IMG/VR virus record: IMGVR_UViG_3300008262_000128
Coordinates: 1 to 39,491 of that record
Reading direction: 5' to 3' (one strand)
Length of the DNA: 39,491 bases
Origin: a virus
Shown here: positions 158-28,040 of the stretch, piece after piece
How the letters are laid out: each line of letters opens with the position of its first letter
How positions within the stretch are numbered: the first letter of the stretch is position 1
Made by a program: the position numbers and the translations under genes
Notes under the pieces: generated by a model
Databases searched by the model: none
The model's input: the letters and a program-made list of their open reading frames with translations, nothing else
Told to the model about the DNA's origin: nothing

Positions 158-1704
158 TGGTGAACCTGTCACCGGGACGGCAGAAGGTGACGGACCAACA
201 GCCCCGGATGGACGGGGGGCTGAATGACGTGTCGGACGATACGGCGCTCCAGCCGAACCAGATGCGGCGAGCGACCAACCTGCGTTTGACAGACTTCGGC
301 GCGGCGACCAAGCGGGGTGGGACCCAGCGCACCTCGACCAACGCACTTGCGGCGGCGGCGGTCCTGAACGGCTACACTTGGCATAAGGACAACGGGACCA
401 ACCAGATTATGGCGGTGTGCAATGGGGCGCTTCGGACGGCGACCTACGGCACCTTTCCGCTGACCTATGCAACCCAGTCTGGGACGCTTTCCACGACCGT
501 GCCGCCCAGCTTCGTGGAGTTTCGGGATGCCGGGAATGCCGAGGTGGTGTACATCGCCGATGGTGGCCTGCTCAACAAGTGGAACGGCACCACCTTGACG
601 GAGATTGCGAACACGCTGGCCGTCAAGCAGGTGGTCGTCTTTAACCAGCGGCTGTGGGGGGCAGGCAACAGCACCTATCCTAACAGCATCTTCTACTCGT
701 CGCTGAATAACGGCGACGACTTGGGCTATGCTACGCCTCCGGCTGGGGGCGGGCAGATTATCGTCCGGACCTTCGGGGACGAGCAGATTATCGGGCTTGC
801 GCCCATTAACACCTCGCTCCTGATTTTCCACGACCGTGGCATCTCGCGACTCACGGGGTTGGGGCAGGACGACATTAACGTCTCGCCTGCGGCAGTCACG
901 GCAGACGTGGGCATCATCGCTGGGAACACCATCGTCCCGGTCAATAACGTTGCCTACTTTATCTCCGAGCGTGGGCTGTATCGGTGCAATGAGGTCGAGG
1001 TCTCACCCGTCGGCACCCCGGTTGCGCCAGACCCGATCCTACCAATCATCCGCCAACTGACCTCGGCACAGTTTGACAAGATTCGGATGGTGCTGAATCG
1101 GGCGACCAAGGAACTCTGGATTACCCTCCCGAACTACGGGTGCTACCAGTACCACACTCTGCTCAATGCGTGGTCTGGGCCGTGGGACGGTGGGTATGTG
1201 TCCCCTGACACGACGTGCTTCTTTGAGACGCTTGACAGCGCCGGACTCCCGGTAGTGCTGAAGGGCGATGCTTCGGGCTGGGTCACCCTGTGCGATGCGC
1301 CCGGGGTGTTCGTGGACAACCAGACCGCCGCTGGGACAGGCGGGACACGCTATGCACTGACCCTTCAGATGCACCGCCTCTACTGCGGGGACGACTCGCT
1401 CTCCAAGGCGTTTCGCTGGGGCTACCTCACGGCCCAGCTCAAGGGATCGGACCAGTGTCGCGTTGAGTGGAACTCGGGCGACAGCTTCGGGTCGTACTCG
1501 CTCCCACCGTCTTACGACGAAACGTGGGGTGGGTCGGGAACCTACTGGGGGACCGGAACGTGGGGTGGGACAGGCAGTCAGAATTACCGCATCCCGATGA
1601 GCGGGACGGGCTACTATGTGGACATCAGCATCATTGACTCTGGCGAGGCATTGCCCGTCTTCAGTCGCTTTCAGTTAGAAACCTTTGCCTTGGGGCGTCG
1701 TTAA
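157..1704 (+). CDS. Tail hub/stabilisation protein, P22 gp10-like
   Basis: A 515-aa protein rich in Gly, Thr and aromatic residues. It has an N-terminal segment of the kind MDGGLN...NLRLTDFGAATKRGGTQ and repeated short beta-strand and turn patterns, suggesting a beta-propeller-like fold. The P22 gp10 family (about 470 aa) closes the portal channel and carries the fibre or needle. Gene order fits: adaptor upstream, fibre directly downstream. I chose ATG 157, which overlaps the preceding stop (TAATG), over the in-frame GTG at 145. It contains no enzymatic motif. A T7 gp12-like nozzle is the main alternative. Confidence 0.7.
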   Translation: MVNLSPGRQKVTDQQPRMDGGLNDVSDDTALQPNQMRRATNLRLTDFGAATKRGGTQRTSTNALAAAAVLNGYTWHKDNGTNQIMAVCNGALRTATYGTFPLTYATQSGTLSTTVPPSFVEFRDAGNAEVVYIADGGLLNKWNGTTLTEIANTLAVKQVVVFNQRLWGAGNSTYPNSIFYSSLNNGDDLGYATPPAGGGQIIVRTFGDEQIIGLAPINTSLLIFHDRGISRLTGLGQDDINVSPAAVTADVGIIAGNTIVPVNNVAYFISERGLYRCNEVEVSPVGTPVAPDPILPIIRQLTSAQFDKIRMVLNRATKELWITLPNYGCYQYHTLLNAWSGPWDGGYVSPDTTCFFETLDSAGLPVVLKGDASGWVTLCDAPGVFVDNQTAAGTGGTRYALTLQMHRLYCGDDSLSKAFRWGYLTAQLKGSDQCRVEWNSGDSFGSYSLPPSYDETWGGSGTYWGTGTWGGTGSQNYRIPMSGTGYYVDISIIDSGEALPVFSRFQLETFALGRR

Positions 1705-4700
1705 ATGGCAGAAACAGTCGGTCAACATTCCGTCGCCGCGTTCACCTCACCCGTCAACGGCACTACGCCGATTGACGCGAACTCGGTGCGCGGCAACGAC
1801 AACACGGTGCGCTCGGCGTATGTCGACCACGACGCGGACCCCGGCATCCACGTTCAGTCCTCTACGCTGGCCTCACGTCCGGTGGCCGGGACGGCGGGCC
1901 GCAAGTGGGTGACCGTCAGCTCGGGGCGCTACCAGTTCTGGTATGACGACGGCTCCCGCTGGCACGAGGTCGCCTCGGACGCCATCAACGTGGACTGCTT
2001 GGCCGACGCCAATCTCGCCAAGGGGGATGTGGTCAAGGTCACCGGGTTCAACAACGGCCAGAACCTGCCGACGGTGAACAAGGTCACGTCCTCGACCGAC
2101 GTGGCGTTCGGCGTGGTCGAGAACACGGTGACCTCGGGCAATATCGTCCAGATCGTCAACACGGGCTTGATTGAGGACCTGAACACGGGTGCGTTTGCGA
2201 TTAACGACATCCTCTACCCGAACACCTCGGGTGGGCTGACGCTTACCAAGCCAACGTCGGGCAACTACCAGCCCGTCGCGTTTGTCCTCCGCTCAAACAA
2301 CACGAACGGCGTCCTCTACGTCGAGTTCTCGGCCCCCCGCATCGTGGAGCGGTCGAATAACGAAGCCTCGACCATCGTCCTCCGGGACGCCTCGGGGAAC
2401 TTCGCCGCTGGCACCATCACCGCTGGGGCGCTGACCGCGTCCGGGGCGGTGTCGGCCGGATCAGTGACCTCGACTGGCCTCGTCACCTTCGCCAGCTTGA
2501 AGGGGACTGGCGCGACTACGGTGACCAATATCCTCGACGAGGATAATATGGCCTCGGACAGCGCCACGGCGCTGGCCACCCAGCAGAGCATCAAGGCGTA
2601 TGTGGACGCCAAGGTCGCCACGGTGGACACGCTGGCCGAGGTGCTGGCCAACGGCAACACCACGGGCGCGACGGACATCATTGTCACGGCGGGCCAGAAG
2701 ATTACGACCGACACCATCGCCGAGACGAGTTCTGGCTTTGGCGTCACCATCGACTCCGTCCTGCTCAAGGACGATGTGGTCAACGCGACCGACATCGAGG
2801 TCGATACCATCTCGGCGAACAACGGGACGCTGGCGGTGACGCTGGCCAGCACGGGCGTAGCGACCATCGCGCAACAGCCCATCCTCTCGTCCCTGACCGC
2901 CTCGCAGGCCGTCTTCACGGACGCCTCCAAGGGCCTCGTCTCCAACGCCATCACGGGGACGGGGAACGTGGTCATGTCGGCCAGCCCCACGCTGACGGGG
3001 ACGGTGACGGCGGCCACGATCAACGCCACCACGCTGGGCGGGACGCTGTCCACGGCGGCCCAGCCCAACGTCACCTCGCTGGGGACGCTCTCCTCGCTCG
3101 CGGTCACGGGGAACCTGACGCTCGGGGCCGACGTGGTCCTGTCGCGTGGGGCCGCTGACCGCTTGGATTTGGCCTCGGGCGACGCGCTCAACGTGGTCAG
3201 CGGGACGTACAAGATTGCCAACACCGATGTCCTCTCGGCGACCACGCTCGGGAGCGGCGTCACGGCGTCCAGCCTCACCTCGGTCGGCACCCTGTCCTCG
3301 CTGACGGTCAGCGGCGACCTGACGGTGGATACCTCGACGCTCAAGGTCGATAGCGCGAACAACCGCGTTGGCATCGGGACGGCGAGTCCGGCAGTGCGGC
3401 TTGATGTGGTAGATACGGCGGCGGTTGCTCGTCTTCGTAGCAGTAGTTCGACTGCCGCTGATGCGCCTCGCTTGCGATTCTTTCACGAAGGCAACGACGA
3501 GTTCCATATCGCTGGTGGCGATGGCCTGTTGTTTTATGGTGGCGGTACCAACCTGCGGATGACGCTCACGGGTTCCGGCAACCTCGGCCTCGGGGTGACG
3601 CCGAGTGCGCCGTTGCACGTTAAGGCCGCGAGCAACGAAATCATGCGGCTACAGTCGTCGGATGCGACGACGGGTTCGCTGTATTTCTCGTTTTACGATT
3701 CAGCAGACGCGGAAAAGGCGTACATTGGATACGGCTCTAGCTCGAACGATGACTTTCTCTTTGTCCAAAGAGAAAACGCAGCAATGGCCTTTTACACCAA
3801 CGCCACCGAACGCGCCCGCATCACGTCGGGGGGCGATGTTCAGATACGAACGGCTGATGCGTACCTCTATTCCAACGGCACATCTGGCGGCACGACGATT
3901 GACGCTGGTTTTAGATTCTTGTCGTCGTCAAAGGTTTTGTCGTTCTGGACTAACGACACCGAGAAAGCCCGCATCACGTCGGATGGTTACTTGTGCGCTG
4001 GGCGGACCACGACGGTCAACGGTGCGCGGTTTATGTCGAGCGGCGCATCGGTAGCCTACGGAACCGAGTGGGCAGCTAACACCTATTTGAGTCAGATGTA
4101 TTTTGACTCATCGTACTATATGGGTGTGCTTGCTGATTCTGGTGGGCGTGAGTTGCGGATGGTTGCCAACAGCGGCGACAGTACGGCAAAAATTACGTTT
4201 TACACGGGCGGCGCTGGCACCCCAACCGAACGCGCCCGCATCACGTCGGGGGGCTACTTCAAGGCGTCGAATGATGGGACGTATCAAGGTTCGACAGGTG
4301 CCTATCACGAATTCCGCACGACGCAGAATGACCAAGTGTCGCTTTTTGTTACCTCAACTGCCGCAAGTGGAAATCAATACGGTATTCAGGTCCGTACAGC
4401 TAACGACCAAAACAACGGAACGAACAACTTTTTAACGTGCTACGGGGCAAGCACCGAACGTGCCACGATTAATTCCAATGGCGGCTTGTCGAACTACAGC
4501 GCCAACAACGTCAACCTCGCCTCGGACTTCCGACTCAAGCAGGACATCGCCCCGCTCGCCTCGACGTGGGACAAGCTCAAGGCCATCGAGGTCGTGAACT
4601 TCCGCTACAAGGACTGCAACGAGGACGACCCTGCGCTGTACGGCGTCATCGCCCAGCAGGTCCAGCCCATCGTGCCGGAACTGGTGGTCGTGACCCGCGA

Positions 4701-5500: not shown

Positions 5501-6400
5501 ATGGCGCAGAAGACAGCGAAACAGATTCAGGACGAGGCCAATCGCCTCTTTGGTAAAGGGGCATCGGACAAGAAGTTCGAGTGGCGTCGGCAACAGCAGG
5601 CCGAGGCGGGGCTAGAGCAAGAGAAGAAGACCCGAGGCGGAGTGGCCGGAGCCTACGACCGCAATAAGGCATTGGTGCAGGCGGCGGTCCCGCTGATTGC
5701 CGGGGCGCTGATTCCGGGGTCCTCGATGATCGCCGGAGCCTTGGCTGGCGGAGCCGCTCGTGGTCTCGACCGTGAGGGCAAGGGCGGGATCGGGCTTGAC
5801 CTCGGTCAGGCCGCCAAGGGCGCGGCGGCTGGGGCGCTTCTTGGGAGTGCTGGTGGGGCCGCCCGGACCGGGATTCAAGGGATGCTTGGTGGCGGTATGA
5901 AGGCGATGCCTGCCCCGGGGGCGGGAATTACGACCGTGGGCGGACAGGCTCCGGGGGCGGTCACCGGGATGCCGGGTATGGGCGCTGGTGCGGGTGCGCC
6001 TCTTAAGGCGCTTCCCGGGATGGGGCAGGGCGCGACGACGATCGGTCAGCGGGTTGCCGGGGCGGTGATGCCGCCGACTGGCGCTGGCTCGCTGACGACC
6101 GCCGCGCCAAGCCTTGGACAGCGGCTTGGAGCTGGGGCGATGAATGTGGCTGGCAAGATCGGGTCGCGGGTGATGGAGAAGCCGGAGCTGGCCGGACAGG
6201 CATTTCTCGGCTACACCAAGTCGCGGCAGGAGTCGGAAAAGAATAAGATCGCCCGTGAGCAATTGGCGCAGGCGGAGTCGCAGTTCCAGCGCACTTTCGG
6301 GCAGTCCGAATCCGAGCGCCAGCGCGAGGTTGAGCGCCAGCGCCGGATTGCCCAGTTGCTGGCTCCCCTCTTCCAGCGCATTAGCGGAGGGCAGGGCTAA
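5501..6400 (+). CDS. Putative ejection/internal virion protein, Gly/Ala-rich
   Basis: A 299-aa protein. Residues 1-50 are charged and helical. Residues 55-230 are Gly/Ala-rich with long hydrophobic stretches (for example VPLIAGALIPG), compatible with membrane insertion. Residues 235-299 form a Gln/Arg/Glu coiled coil containing QRTFGQSESERQRE, which resembles the repeat unit of the next protein. The stop overlaps the next start (TAATG). It lies between tail and lysis genes, where DNA-ejection proteins (P22 gp7/16/20, T7 gp14-16) sit. Composition and place are the only evidence. Confidence 0.6.
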   Translation: MAQKTAKQIQDEANRLFGKGASDKKFEWRRQQQAEAGLEQEKKTRGGVAGAYDRNKALVQAAVPLIAGALIPGSSMIAGALAGGAARGLDREGKGGIGLDLGQAAKGAAAGALLGSAGGAARTGIQGMLGGGMKAMPAPGAGITTVGGQAPGAVTGMPGMGAGAGAPLKALPGMGQGATTIGQRVAGAVMPPTGAGSLTTAAPSLGQRLGAGAMNVAGKIGSRVMEKPELAGQAFLGYTKSRQESEKNKIAREQLAQAESQFQRTFGQSESERQREVERQRRIAQLLAPLFQRISGGQG

Positions 6401-8421
6401 TGACTAGCCGCTTGATGACGGAAGAAGAGCGCAAGAGGATGATGGAGGATTCCCGGAACTCCGGGATGTGGGGAGCGCCAACGCGCCAACCGAGTCCACC
6501 GCCTCAAGGAACGCGGATGGCCGAGCGGATGGGTGGCGGAGCAAGCCCGATGGGAACGGGGATGGCAACCCTCCAGCCGACTGCGCCGACTGCGCCCCAG
6601 CCGCTCCAGCAACAGCCCGGGCAAGCCCAGCCTGCCCAGCAGATGCAGGCGGCTCCGGCCCCTCGTCAGCAGACCTTCGCCCAGATGCAGGCGTCCGGGC
6701 AGGCCCGTCCGGCCCCGCCACAGCCGATGCAGATGCAGGCCCAGTTGGCTGGCGTGGAAGAGCAAGTGCGAGCCGCACCGAACATAACCTACAGTATGGC
6801 CGGGACGCCCACGGCGGGTGCGCCAACCGCTGGCGCTCCCACCCAGCAGGCTCCGGCCCAGCCGAACCTCCAGCAGATGGCCTTCCAGCAGATGCGGCAG
6901 GCCAGTCAGGCGGATCTGCAAGCCCAGTTCCAAGCCCAGCAACAGCAGTTGAACGAGGAGATGGCTCGCCGTGGGCTGGCCGCGTCCTCGATTGCCTCCG
7001 GGCGGATGGGTGACCTTGCGGGTCAGCAGGCTCGGGCGCTGGCAGGGTTGGATGCCCAGCTTCTCCAGCAACAGGCCCAGCAGTCCTTCCAAGCCGAGCA
7101 GGAGGCCGCCCAGCGAGCCTTTGCGGGCGGGGAATCGGCCTTGGAGCGCCAGCTCCGTGAGCAGATGCAACGGGAGGGCTTTGGACAGGAGCGCGACATC
7201 CTTGGTCGGACGCAGACATTCGCTGGTAGCGAGTCTGCCGCCGAGCGCGAACTCCGTCAGCAGTTGATGCGCGAAGGCAATACGTTTGAGGCGGCCCAAG
7301 CGGAAGCCCAGCGTCGGTTTGCCGGGGGTGAGAGCGCCTTGGAGCGCGGTCTCCGTGAGCGGCTCCAGTCGGGGGCGCAAGCCTTTGAGGCGGGTCAGGC
7401 GCGGGAACAGCGGACCTTCGCTGGTGGCGAGTCGGCCTTGGAGCGCGAGGCGCGGATGAACCTCCAGACGGGCGCACAGGAGTTCCAGCGCGGCGAGACC
7501 GCTTTGGAGCGCGAGTTGCGGGACCGTCTCCAGCTCGGGTCGCAGGTCTTTGAGGCCGGACAGGCCGAGCAACAGCGTCGCTTTGCCGGGACCGAATCTG
7601 CCGCCGAGCGGGCGGCACGGGAGCGGCAACAGACCCTCGCCCAGATGTTCGAGCGTGAGCAGGCGGGCGAGCAACGGAAGTTTACTGGCACCGAGTCCCA
7701 GTTCCAGCGCGATCTCCAGCGTCAGTTGCAGTCGGGCGCACAGTCGTTCGAGGCCCAGCAGGCGCTGGCCCAGCGGCTCTTTGCGGGGACGGAGTCGGCG
7801 GCGGAACGCGAGCAACGGCTGGCGTTGCAGGCCCGCCAGTTCGCGCAGGAAGAGGCGCAGGCCCAGCTCCAGCGCGACTTTGCGCGTGGGGAGTCGAGCG
7901 CCGAGCGGACGCTCCGGTCGCAGTTGCAGACCGGGGCGCAGGAGTTCCAGCGCGGGGAGTCCGAACTTGAGCGGCAACTGCGGACGACCCTACAGGGCCA
8001 GCAGATTGCCGAGTCGGCGGCAGACCGTGCGATGCGTCAGCGGTTTGGCGAGGCGGACATCACCGGGACGTATGGCGGCCAGCAGACGATGGCGGCACGG
8101 CAGTTTGCGGCCCAGCAGGATATGGCCCGGAACCAGATGCTCACCCAGTTGGCGGGGCAACTGGCGGGTGGCGCACCGGAAACGATGGAAGCGTTGTTTA
8201 AGGCCCTCGGTATTACTCCGCCCGGTGGTGGCGGCGGCGGTGGTGGCGGGGGTGGTGGTGGTGGCGCTGGCGGCGGCGGCGCGGTTGGCGGTGGAATGGG
8301 TGGCGGCGTTACTGGCGGTGGCTATGCTGGTGGCGCATTAGGCAATGCTGGCACGTTAACCGGATTTTCGTCCAACGATTTAGCGGCACTCAGTCAAATG
8401 TTCCTCCCACAGGCGTACTGA
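6400..8421 (+). CDS. Gln-rich repeat protein, putative ejection protein
   Basis: A 673-aa protein. Residues 1-160 are Pro/Gln/Ala-rich and low in complexity. Residues 160-240 are Gln-rich helix. Residues 240-550 hold about ten tandem units of 22-35 aa, each with a core like FAGGESALERELR followed by LQSGAQ and FEAGQA. Residues 608-645 are almost all glycine, and the tail contains SSNDLAALSQMF. The repeats should form long helices or coiled coils. The position after another Gly/Ala-rich virion-type protein and before the giant protein suggests an injected channel protein, analogous to T7 gp15. No family was recognised. Confidence 0.6.
   Translation: MTSRLMTEEERKRMMEDSRNSGMWGAPTRQPSPPPQGTRMAERMGGGASPMGTGMATLQPTAPTAPQPLQQQPGQAQPAQQMQAAPAPRQQTFAQMQASGQARPAPPQPMQMQAQLAGVEEQVRAAPNITYSMAGTPTAGAPTAGAPTQQAPAQPNLQQMAFQQMRQASQADLQAQFQAQQQQLNEEMARRGLAASSIASGRMGDLAGQQARALAGLDAQLLQQQAQQSFQAEQEAAQRAFAGGESALERQLREQMQREGFGQERDILGRTQTFAGSESAAERELRQQLMREGNTFEAAQAEAQRRFAGGESALERGLRERLQSGAQAFEAGQAREQRTFAGGESALEREARMNLQTGAQEFQRGETALERELRDRLQLGSQVFEAGQAEQQRRFAGTESAAERAARERQQTLAQMFEREQAGEQRKFTGTESQFQRDLQRQLQSGAQSFEAQQALAQRLFAGTESAAEREQRLALQARQFAQEEAQAQLQRDFARGESSAERTLRSQLQTGAQEFQRGESELERQLRTTLQGQQIAESAADRAMRQRFGEADITGTYGGQQTMAARQFAAQQDMARNQMLTQLAGQLAGGAPETMEALFKALGITPPGGGGGGGGGGGGGGAGGGGAVGGGMGGGVTGGGYAGGALGNAGTLTGFSSNDLAALSQMFLPQAY
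7117..8045 (+). repeat. Tandem protein-level repeats (GES-x-x-ER units)
   Basis: About ten in-frame units share the core F-A-G-G/T-E-S-A-x-E-R, spaced 22-35 codons apart. The DNA copies have diverged, so this is an old internal amplification maintained at protein level. Confidence 0.8.
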
Positions 8422-21247: not shown

Positions 21248-21771
21248 GGTGTCCGCTGACGCATTGCCGCGCCCAGATGGTCGAGCGGGTCGATCGTCTG
21301 GGGCGGCTCTCGTGGGACTGCCCGTGGTGTGCGCGGCGGAAGGCAGGGGTCTGTCGCCATTGTCCTCGTCTCGTGTTTGGGACCATCGGGCGGTCGCACT
21401 TTTGCGTCGAGTGTCGCGCCGAACGAAAGAAGGTGGTGCGGAAAATATGGCTAGCAAACAACAAAGAACGAACGCGCAAGTGGTCACGGCGGTGGCGGAG
21501 GAAGCACGTCAAGCAACACCGCGAAGCGTGTAAGAAGTGGCGGGAAAACAACAAAGCCTACAACACCATTCGTGTTCGGGCCTACCGATGGTCGAAGCGT
21601 GGACAACTTGCGCCAGCCAAACCGATGACCCGTTCGGAAGCTGGAAAGCTCGGCGGGAAGCTGGGAGCCGCCGCACGGATGGCCGCGATCGGGCCGGAGC
21701 GAGTGCGGGAGATCGCGCTCAATGCAGGCAGGGCGCGGTGGGAGAAGTATCGCCGGGAGCGTGGGCAATGA
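21244..21771 (+). CDS. Zinc-finger, very basic protein
   Basis: A 175-aa protein from GTG 21244. Several Cys pairs lie in the first 60 residues (CPWCARRK, CRHCPRLVFG, CVECRAERKK). A strongly basic middle follows (RKWSRRWRRKHVKQ), then a C-terminal KLGGKLGAAARMAA motif resembling a short nucleic-acid-binding helix. It should bind DNA or RNA. An HNH-type nuclease was considered, but the His-Asn-His core is not evident. Overlaps at both ends (GTGA, ATGA) place it firmly in the operon. Confidence 0.6.
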   Translation: MRCPLTHCRAQMVERVDRLGRLSWDCPWCARRKAGVCRHCPRLVFGTIGRSHFCVECRAERKKVVRKIWLANNKERTRKWSRRWRRKHVKQHREACKKWRENNKAYNTIRVRAYRWSKRGQLAPAKPMTRSEAGKLGGKLGAAARMAAIGPERVREIALNAGRARWEKYRRERGQ

Positions 21772-22241
21772 CGCTCGCGATCACGACCGCGCTCGGACAG
21801 GCGCACGAGCGCCGGGGCTGGCGGCTCCTGATGGACTTCGGGTCGCACACCCGATCGACGTGTCACCCCACCCCGGCCCACGTTCCCGCCACGCTCGATG
21901 CGGTCTATAGCCGGGACGGGGTGCTGGTGGCGGTGGCGGAGGCGAAGACCCGCATCCGCTACGACTATCCCAAGATCGCGGAGTACGGCTCCTATCTTGT
22001 GACGGAGGACAAGCTGGAGGTTCTCTGTGCCACGGGCAAGGCGCTCGGTGTGCCGTCCTTTCTGGTGACCGAGCTATCGGATAGGGTGCGCCTCTACTGG
22101 CCCATCGGGACGGCGATGGGTGATCCGGTCCACGGCTGGACAGCGGCCTACTCGCGGACGCTGGCGACCTCGGTTGATCTGGAGACGGTGGTCCGCCGCA
22201 ATGCCTATCTGCCCCTTGCGAATGCGGTGATCTGGGGGTAG
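21768..22241 (+). CDS. PD-(D/E)XK nuclease-like protein
   Basis: A 157-aa protein from ATG 21768 (ATGA overlap). Asp44 in ATLDAVYSRDG and Glu58-Ala-Lys60 in VAVAEAKTR give the D...ExK metal site of PD-(D/E)XK enzymes, followed by a helix (YDYPKIAEYGSYL) and strand (KLEVLCATGKALG). The core matches resolvase- or RecB-like nucleases in order and spacing. A role in recombination, resolution or host DNA breakdown is plausible; the substrate is unknown. It is the last gene before the long non-coding region. Confidence 0.65.
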   Translation: MTLAITTALGQAHERRGWRLLMDFGSHTRSTCHPTPAHVPATLDAVYSRDGVLVAVAEAKTRIRYDYPKIAEYGSYLVTEDKLEVLCATGKALGVPSFLVTELSDRVRLYWPIGTAMGDPVHGWTAAYSRTLATSVDLETVVRRNAYLPLANAVIWG

Positions 22242-22791
22242 ATTGGCGGTGCGGTGACCTCGAAAGCATCGTGAGTTAGCAGTTACAAGAGAACCGCCCC
22301 GGCCAGTATCTCCTGCTCAATTCCTTCTACGGGGGTCGAGCCTTTCGAGAGGAGAGAACGTCGGGGTCTCTTGTTTGACTGCTGGCCTACTCTCGGTCTC
22401 CAGCAGGGGCGGTAATCCGATACCGCTCGCTCAATCCTGACCGTGCTGGCGTATCCGCTTCTCCAAATCCCCGCGCTGTCAGCCTACAACGGGGTCGGTC
22501 ATCTCGGATCACGCTGGGAGCAGGACGGTGGAATAGCACCACCGACAGGTCACCCGTCGAGGGACTTCGTGCGAGACCCCCGCACAAGCGCAGACGGCCC
22601 CGGTGCTAGCCTTCGGACCTGACGCTTGCATAACTGCCCTGATGACCGGGAATGGCCGGGGTGTATCCGTTATCGTCAGCCGTTGCATATCGTCGGTATG
22701 TATGCAGAACTACCGACAAATCGCACCCGTAGTGGGTAGACTTATACCCGTACTGGGCGCGTTCGCCGCCTAAGAGATAGCAGAATGCCAT
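22242..22791 (+). ncRNA. 550-bp non-coding region with many hairpins (candidate structured RNA)
   Basis: No credible gene occupies this gap. It holds at least six strong local inverted repeats: CTGCTGG/CCAGCAG (22380-22406), GCGGTA/TACCGC (22409-22426), CGGTGG/CCACCG (near 22525-22545), GTGCG/CGCAC (near 22570-22585), TGACG and ATAAC pairing with GTTAT and CGTCA (22620-22680), and GTCGGTA/TACCGAC (22692-22717). Longer-range pairs are GGCGGT/ACCGCC, TCTCCT/AGGAGA and TGACCG/CGGTCA. It runs straight into a tRNA gene. Alternatives are a replication origin or a decayed gene. The strand is assumed from the tRNA and flanking genes. Confidence 0.45.
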
Positions 22792-22862
22792 TGCCCTCTC
22801 GTTCAATGGCAGGACCCCGCACTTTGGATGCGGTGATCGTGGTTCGATTCCACGGGGGGCAA
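22792..22862 (+). tRNA. tRNA-Gln (anticodon TTG)
   Basis: A full cloverleaf by hand: acceptor TGCCCTC/GGGGGCA (one T-G pair), D stem GTTC/GGAC, anticodon stem CCGCA/TGCGG with loop CTTTGGA (anticodon TTG, positions 34-36), four-base variable loop, T stem CGTGG/CCACG with loop TTCGATT, discriminator A. The 3' CCA is not encoded. It reads CAA and, by wobble, CAG. The phage carries very Gln-rich virion proteins. No obvious promoter lies directly upstream, so it may be processed from a longer transcript. Confidence 0.95.
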
Positions 22863-22869
22863 TTCGCTC

Positions 22870-22929
22870 TTGCGTGTTCGTGGTTACGGTGGTATACTCG
22901 TGACCACACACATCACCACGGGGGAAGGA
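22870..22929 (+). promoter_or_regulatory. Promoter directly after the tRNA, with CACACACATCACCACGGGGG leader
   Basis: TTGCGT (22870-22875), 17 nt, TATACT (22893-22898), a near-ideal sigma70 layout starting 8 bases after the tRNA. The expected start, about 22905, again coincides with the CA-rich leader, which ends in GGGGGAAGGA before ATG 22930. Confidence 0.8.
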
Positions 22930-27153: not shown

Positions 27154-28040
27154 TTGCCAGCCTCCACCACAACCGGGGCCGACTGCTCCCCGGTCAGGTA
27201 GTCTGCCGCCTTCTGGGCGAGGCTGGCGGCCTTGGCGAGCATCTCCGGATGCTGGCGGCAGGCCTTGGCCCAGCCCTTCAGGTAGGCCGCGCTCTGGCTG
27301 ATCTGCGCGAACCCGAACCGTCCGGCGAGGAAAGCGGAGGCCAGCTCCGCGACCAGCTCCTCGAAGGCGTAGTCGGCGGTCCCGAACCGTGCCGGGGTGA
27401 TCCGCTTGAGCCGCTTCTCGCCGCCCGTCCAATGGGCCAGCTCGTGGAAGAGGGTCGCGTAGTAGCCCTCGCGGCTGGTGAAGGTCTCCGGATCGGGCAT
27501 CCGGATGGCATCGAGCGCCGGGATGTAGCAGGCGACTGACGCGCCGTGCTTGACATCGGCCCCGCTCCGCTCGACCAGCTCCTCCGCCTCCTCGATCGCC
27601 TCGAAGCCGTTCAGGGTCTCCGGGGTGTGCCGTGCCTTCAGGCTGGCGAGCGCCCCCGGCTCCAGCTCGTCGAGCTGGTCGAGATTGAAGACCCGGAAGC
27701 CACGGGCGAAGAAGTAGCTGGCGGGATCGTTGTCAGCCTCGCTCGGCCCGTTCCCCTGCGTGGCCTTCTTGACGGCCTTGGACATAAAGAACACGGTCGT
27801 GGACCGCTCGCCCTTCCGGACCACGCATCCGGCCTCGATCGCTTGGTTCCACGTCAGCCAGCCCTGCGTCGAGTACTGCGCTCCGGCGAAGATCAGCGCG
27901 ATCACGTTCCCGCCGGAGTAGCGGCGTCCGGTCGCGGCGTTGTACGGGCCACCGCCCGTCCACGGACGCACCCACGGCGTCCGGCCCTGTTCCATCTCGG
28001 TGATGATCTGCTCGAACACATCGGCGTAGACCTTTTGCAT
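27150..28040 (-). CDS. ArdC-like antirestriction protein
   Basis: A 296-aa protein. The N-terminal ArdC domain (residues 1-125) begins MQKVYADVFEQIITEMEQG, followed by the typical RPWTGGGPYNAATGRRYSGG and a ssDNA-binding fold. The C-terminal zincin domain contains HELAHWTG (His199, Glu200, His203) and EELVAE (about 227-232) as third ligand. Plasmid ArdC protects incoming DNA from host restriction, partly by binding single strands. Here it probably protects phage DNA early in infection. Its own promoter and strong leader fix ATG 28040 over a longer frame. Confidence 0.88.
   Translation of the reverse strand: MQKVYADVFEQIITEMEQGRTPWVRPWTGGGPYNAATGRRYSGGNVIALIFAGAQYSTQGWLTWNQAIEAGCVVRKGERSTTVFFMSKAVKKATQGNGPSEADNDPASYFFARGFRVFNLDQLDELEPGALASLKARHTPETLNGFEAIEEAEELVERSGADVKHGASVACYIPALDAIRMPDPETFTSREGYYATLFHELAHWTGGEKRLKRITPARFGTADYAFEELVAELASAFLAGRFGFAQISQSAAYLKGWAKACRQHPEMLAKAASLAQKAADYLTGEQSAPVVVEAGK

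Follow-up and report, generated by a model that had tools for sequence, protein, structure and literature searches.

A conserved two-domain structured RNA with crossing helices in a phage genome and its relatives

We describe a conserved structured RNA of two domains, encoded on the plus strand at positions 22250-22668 of a virus record of 39,491 bases (the window, by which we mean the whole stretch of DNA that was analysed). The record carries genes for a tail fibre, terminase, portal and head along with a DNA-metabolism region, and its proteins are remote from those of the nearest isolated phages, with ~20–31% identity. We think it probable that the locus encodes a phage non-coding RNA of a new class, large and multi-pseudoknotted, which is expressed from its own promoter and acts in trans as a particle.

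The RNA lies in a gene-free gap of ~549 bases that follows a PD-(D/E)XK-like gene (stop at 22241) and leads up to a tRNA-Gln gene. The locus has these features:

21768..22241, plus strand: upstream neighbour gene, a PDDEXK_14-like nuclease (weak match)
22216..22244, plus strand: promoter-like site of the RNA (TTGCGA, 17 nt, TAGATT), read from the sequence, overlapping the upstream stop codon
about 22250 to 22668, plus strand: the large RNA (~420 bases), conserved extent from comparison with relatives
22251..22272, plus strand: hairpin P1 (GCGGUG/CAUCGU), whose loop (22259-22266) pairs with 22342-22349 as a pseudoknot
22285..22374, plus strand: long stem P2 (ACAAGAG..CCCCG / CGGGG..CUCUUGU) with apical helices
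22375..22378, plus strand: linker between the 5' and 3' domains, the site of an ORF in L011, L014, L026, L028 and L015
22379..22662, plus strand: 3' domain of covarying helices
22663..22668, plus strand: last conserved bases and approximate 3' end of the RNA, where similarity stops
22682-22718, on to 22775, plus strand: separate small conserved hairpin element (GTTGC..CGTCGGTA..TACCGACA..TTCGCCGC), outside the large RNA
22791..22863, plus strand: tRNA-Gln (UUG), a neighbour outside the large RNA
22870..22898, plus strand: promoter-like site of the next gene (TTGCGT, 17 nt, TATACT), read from the sequence

An earlier note on this DNA had proposed that 22242-22791, free of genes, rich in perfect short inverted repeats and joined to the tRNA, is a candidate new structured RNA. 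The absence of a credible gene is borne out, as are the repeats: 22242-22790 holds 10 perfect stems of at least 6 bp, a modest excess over the 4.4 ± 2.1 found in dinucleotide shuffles, 2 of 200 of which reach 10. The folding energy is unremarkable alone, with z = -1.6 on the plus strand (5 of 100 shuffles equally good) and -1.7 on the other. Since the hairpin excess in a single sequence is modest, the certainty of a structured RNA comes from the comparison with relatives. The same comparison trimmed the proposed element: its first part is the conserved RNA, while the last ~120 bases before the tRNA (22670-22790) are occupied by the small hairpin element. The gene-free stretch does adjoin the tRNA in the window, but the RNA has this neighbour elsewhere only in L018; tRNA-Gln is found at other places in L002 and L005, most loci have no tRNA at all, and we consider the adjacency incidental. 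A terminator scan of the window showed no intrinsic terminator near 22663..22668, and the tRNA was the sole match in an Rfam scan of the window, at permissive thresholds too.

Besides the window, 34 IMG/VR contigs, several of them near-duplicates, carry the RNA, and there are two remote relatives. Each contig searched has one RNA locus, the two pieces listed in G000 and in G313 being parts of one copy. L002 was reached via the downstream exonuclease, and blastn then recovered the RNA stretch in it, which is 79% identical to that of the window, compared with ~70% for nearby coding DNA. Further contigs were gathered by DNA patterns taken from conserved blocks, and the family was followed by profile HMM and direct pair counts. 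A profile of two sequences matched the first-scan loci with E < 1e-40 for all except the divergent L026, and later loci were confirmed with a profile of the 3' domain. One contig found via the exonuclease, L003, was rejected as a member, having no recognisable copy of the RNA. Searched with blastn against isolated phages and plasmids, the RNA returned only the tRNA or nothing; one exact pattern run against bacterial and archaeal genome contigs gave four chance matches and not the RNA itself, and a protein search with the upstream nuclease as query returned no relatives.

The remote relatives lie in other phages, at about 6145-5960 on the minus strand of L034 and about 3760-3950 on the plus strand of L043. 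Both share the hairpin of helix G, helix H (listed below), an ACCCC loop and the end AUGGCGGGGGUGU, and neither has the first helices or the 5' domain. The G hairpin of L043 has 31 of 32 bases in common with L002, and a pattern scan for additional RNAs of this type found just those two. Two differences between near-identical contigs were also noted: L016, unlike L023, lacks the 5' part of the RNA, and at 6143 its upstream gene extends into the RNA, through either a real deletion or an assembly join; and 65 bases of the window (27476-27540) are not present in L004.

The 3' domain is the constant part of the RNA. When 24 sequences were searched for covarying helices, 13 helices with 71 pairs emerged, placed in the window as follows, all on the plus strand:

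22379-22385/22400-22406: helix A
22394-22398/22439-22443: helix B, crossing other helices
22407-22414/22421-22428: helix C
22417-22420/22613-22616: helix D, crossing other helices
22446-22449/22514-22517: helix E
22455-22459/22504-22508: helix F
22469-22473/22490-22494, inner 22477-22479/22486-22488: helix G
22495-22503/22641-22649: helix H, crossing other helices
22526-22530/22540-22544: helix I
22534-22539/22603-22608: helix J, crossing other helices
22554-22558/22593-22597: helix K
22576-22580/22658-22662: helix M, crossing other helices

Compensatory changes in these helices were abundant. Counted on an alignment of 23 sequences (A4), 98.7% of cells are paired and 42 of the 71 pairs are changed on both sides, with a covariation score of 0.423, compared with 0.140 after shuffling and no more than 0.062 after sliding; these figures are somewhat flattering because the helices were picked on nearly the same sequences, and the margin is far beyond the likely effect of this. 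Because kinship among sequences can mimic covariation, we ran a tree-aware null in which the changes of each column were re-placed randomly on the tree. Over 300 simulations it yielded 79.7 ± 1.8% paired cells (maximum 84.7), 18 ± 2.8 doubly changed pairs (maximum 26) and a score of 0.106 ± 0.013 (maximum 0.144). The five crossing helices by themselves are 99.1% paired, with a covariation of 0.356 against at most 0.063 when slid. Helix H keeps its pairing despite differing letters, as UCGGUCAUC/GAUGACCGG in the window, UGCUCAUC/GAUGAGCG in L043, UGGGGCAG/CUGCCCCG in L026 and UCGGUGGUG/UACCACCGG in L044, and in each of these four AUGGC follows within a few bases; in L034 and L041 the automatic search chose other partners, and the equivalent pairing was seen by eye only. 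The multi-pseudoknot core also holds many invariant unpaired bases. No reading frame stays open through the 3' domain across all relatives, so the reading as a structured RNA stands. Some of the crossing helices could join two copies rather than closing within one RNA.

The 5' domain is the changeable part. An alignment of 13 sequences of its commonest type (A5) is 96.1% paired, with 14 of 36 pairs doubly changed and a score of 0.308 against 0.105 shuffled. All cells of P1 and of the loop pseudoknot are paired, and 4 of the 8 pseudoknot pairs are doubly changed; the lower part of P2 pairs in 80% of cells, a value that partly reflects misaligned gaps. By inspection, P2 also has a conserved, loop-E-like AGUA/GAA internal loop. 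Other types of 5' domain have little sequence in common with this one, yet form the same loop pairing in other letters: UUCACGG/CCGUGAA in L002, UUCGUGG/CCACGAA in L028, GUGAGAA/UUCUCAC in L005, UAGGG/CCCUA in L013, AGAGG/CCUCU in L022 and L015, GGUCAA/UUGACC in L044 and GAGACC/GGUCUC in L041. L025 has none of the recognised types, and L036 lacks the 5' domain, with a promoter-like site immediately before the 3' domain.

Between the two domains, five contigs (named in the first list) have an ORF that starts just past the 5' domain and ends just short of the 3' domain. It encodes a C5 DNA methyltransferase in L011, an N4/N6 DNA methyltransferase in L014 and L026, and a DUF5843-type protein in L028 and L015; the families were assigned by Pfam on L011, L014 and L007, a cluster mate of the L028 and L015 proteins. 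The 3' helices are kept in the four of these contigs that are rows of A4 (L014, L011, L015 and L028). Varied genes have thus come to occupy one permissive site, and with an ORF inside the unit in these five contigs, part of the family may be messenger RNA with structured ends. Most members have no ORF there. In other members a methyltransferase or nuclease-like gene stands beside the RNA, not inside it. The surrounding genes change sides and differ between phages, and no protein neighbour is constant: the RNA in L002 is on the opposite side of the nuclease gene compared with the window, and relatives of the upstream nuclease gene come after the RNA in L002, L005 and L029. By eye, the DUF5843-type proteins encoded within the RNA or adjacent to it (L007 3645-4130, L002 4213-4755, L018, L015 and L028) have a D..VDVK.T-like motif and the look of a PD-(D/E)XK nuclease. 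The L044 linker (about 380-480, minus strand) has, also by eye, a tRNA-like T-arm stretch, GGTTCGATTCC, with matching acceptor-like ends, for which ARAGORN made no call.

The strand was assigned as plus because of the pair counts and the conserved promoter-like site. There are 89 G-U cells and 8 A-C cells on the plus strand, the reverse being expected on the other. The fold of the reverse strand necessarily covaries too, and its covariation term is smaller (-5.9 versus -9.4). Upstream of the RNA, aligned members share the consensus CTTG(A/C), about 17 nt, TA; of 15 aligned relatives, 14 have CTTG at an equal distance from the RNA and the remaining one has CTTT there. A generic promoter scan at 9 or more of 12 consensus bases listed neither this site in the window nor that of the next gene. 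The plus strand also agrees with the direction of the neighbouring genes.

The earlier note had suggested a likeness to GOLLD or ROOL, or else a new class. GOLLD combines a conserved 3' region with a less conserved 5' region, joined by a linker in which a tRNA is sometimes found; it contains pseudoknots and assembles into a cage, and ROOL is a large phage-encoded RNA with multiple pseudoknots (PMC12286853). The layout of GOLLD (RF02032), the closest plan described so far, does recur here: a large phage RNA with a constant 3' and a variable 5' region, a linker able to hold genes, pseudoknots and sometimes an adjacent tRNA. However, the new RNA has ~420 nt where many GOLLD RNAs exceed 800, its linker holds protein genes (and the tRNA-like stretch of L044), and it is not tied to tRNA islands, tRNA genes being the usual though not obligatory neighbours of GOLLD. 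Like ROOL (RF03087), it is phage-encoded, large and multiply pseudoknotted, but it is smaller and has two clear domains, the 5' one exchangeable. Neither covariance model matched: RF02032 gave nothing with E up to 10 in 10 records, and RF03087 gave nothing at E up to 10, with control genomes also without a match. HEARO, the IscB omega RNA (RF02033), is comparable as a pseudoknotted RNA next to genes of mobile DNA. A HEARO test was prompted by an apparent resemblance in L034 and L043; the identity was rejected, as RF02033 gave nothing at E 10 and the one weak HEARO hit that was retrieved looks different. The IscB-type (RRXRR) gene family PF14239 had no match in the window's record, in a search whose control was silent too, and the annotated neighbours are other genes. 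Because the GOLLD, ROOL and HEARO models do not match, GOLLD membership is not claimed and the likeness is architectural. The RNA was found neither in any Rfam family nor in the literature searched, which took in few subscription papers. In our judgement it belongs to the large ornate phage RNAs, a kind already known, and forms a new class among them whose unusual trait is the nested protein gene.

To our knowledge, few large RNAs preserve so much structure, the phage ones (GOLLD, ROOL) are still without a function, and GOLLD is among the least understood RNAs in biology. An independent, smaller class built on a similar two-domain plan offers a second, separate source of evidence on the purpose of such RNAs, and its natural core-only (L036), swapped-domain and gene-in-linker forms are a ready-made experimental series.

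Under the explanation that we favour, the RNA would be transcribed early in infection under its own promoter and would act in trans as a compact particle, made of RNA alone or with protein. The 3' domain would be the common core or machine, the 5' domain a changeable face, exchanged or adjusted from phage to phage, and the linker a loop that tolerates cargo, as in GOLLD, whose cage is a 14-mer. We would entertain only tentatively the wider idea of a phage RNA-particle superfamily, in which a constant pseudoknotted core is combined with an interchangeable recognition domain and a nested methyltransferase or nuclease-like gene, so that one transcript would be both structural RNA and messenger and would be directed early at the host or its defences.

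A special case of the favoured explanation is a trans-acting counter-defence or decoy RNA whose variable 5' domain answers changing host targets. The 5' domain does diversify with its fold kept, and methyltransferase and nuclease-like genes occur in the linker and neighbourhood, a mix that is common in anti-restriction regions. The neighbours are not constant, however, and the same traits suit a structural particle of other purpose, which leaves this version rather unlikely. Slightly less likely again is a cis-acting leader or regulatory RNA that would serve early DNA-modification genes, methyltransferases for example, through a riboswitch-like 5' domain and a protective 3' domain. The ORFs in the linker agree with it, but most members lack one, the genes that follow vary by phage, and a large 3' domain placed after the ORF is odd for a switch. 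In the window, the next gene is preceded by a promoter-like site of its own, which suggests that it is probably independent of the RNA as a leader.

We consider it improbable that the RNA is a ribozyme or a self-splicing or mobile intron-like element with ORFs in a peripheral loop. The multi-pseudoknot core with its invariant unpaired bases, the differing ORFs in the same linker and the swapped order of element and nuclease gene between the window and L002 would fit such an element, but the RNA sits between genes and interrupts none, has its own promoter-like site, occurs once per contig and in every case shares the strand of its neighbouring genes. No group I or II intron or ribozyme model in Rfam matched it, and the ORF products are methyltransferases, not homing enzymes of the typical kind. 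A decayed gene or a replication origin, the alternatives offered by the earlier note for a gene-free stretch rich in inverted repeats, is hardly credible, because pairwise compensation over long distances, pseudoknots included, needs RNA pairing, the 3' domain has no frame that all relatives keep open, and the GC skew of the window shows no switch at the locus.

The small hairpin element of the window also lies 3' of the large RNA in L011 (7337 on), L024, L019, L035, L038 and L039, with a promoter-like TATACT ahead of it in L011 and L024, and is possibly another small RNA. A further conserved stretch, GCAAG.TCCCCG..CTCCGTGTCGGGGGATAC, was observed downstream of the RNA in L024, L015, L028, L042 and L035; in several loci it ends in a hairpin and T-run (GGCGGGTTTGTTTTT), resembling a small RNA with an intrinsic terminator. 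Finally, L009 has a candidate hammerhead type II ribozyme at 6566-6636 on the minus strand, with 35 bits against a gathering score of 37.
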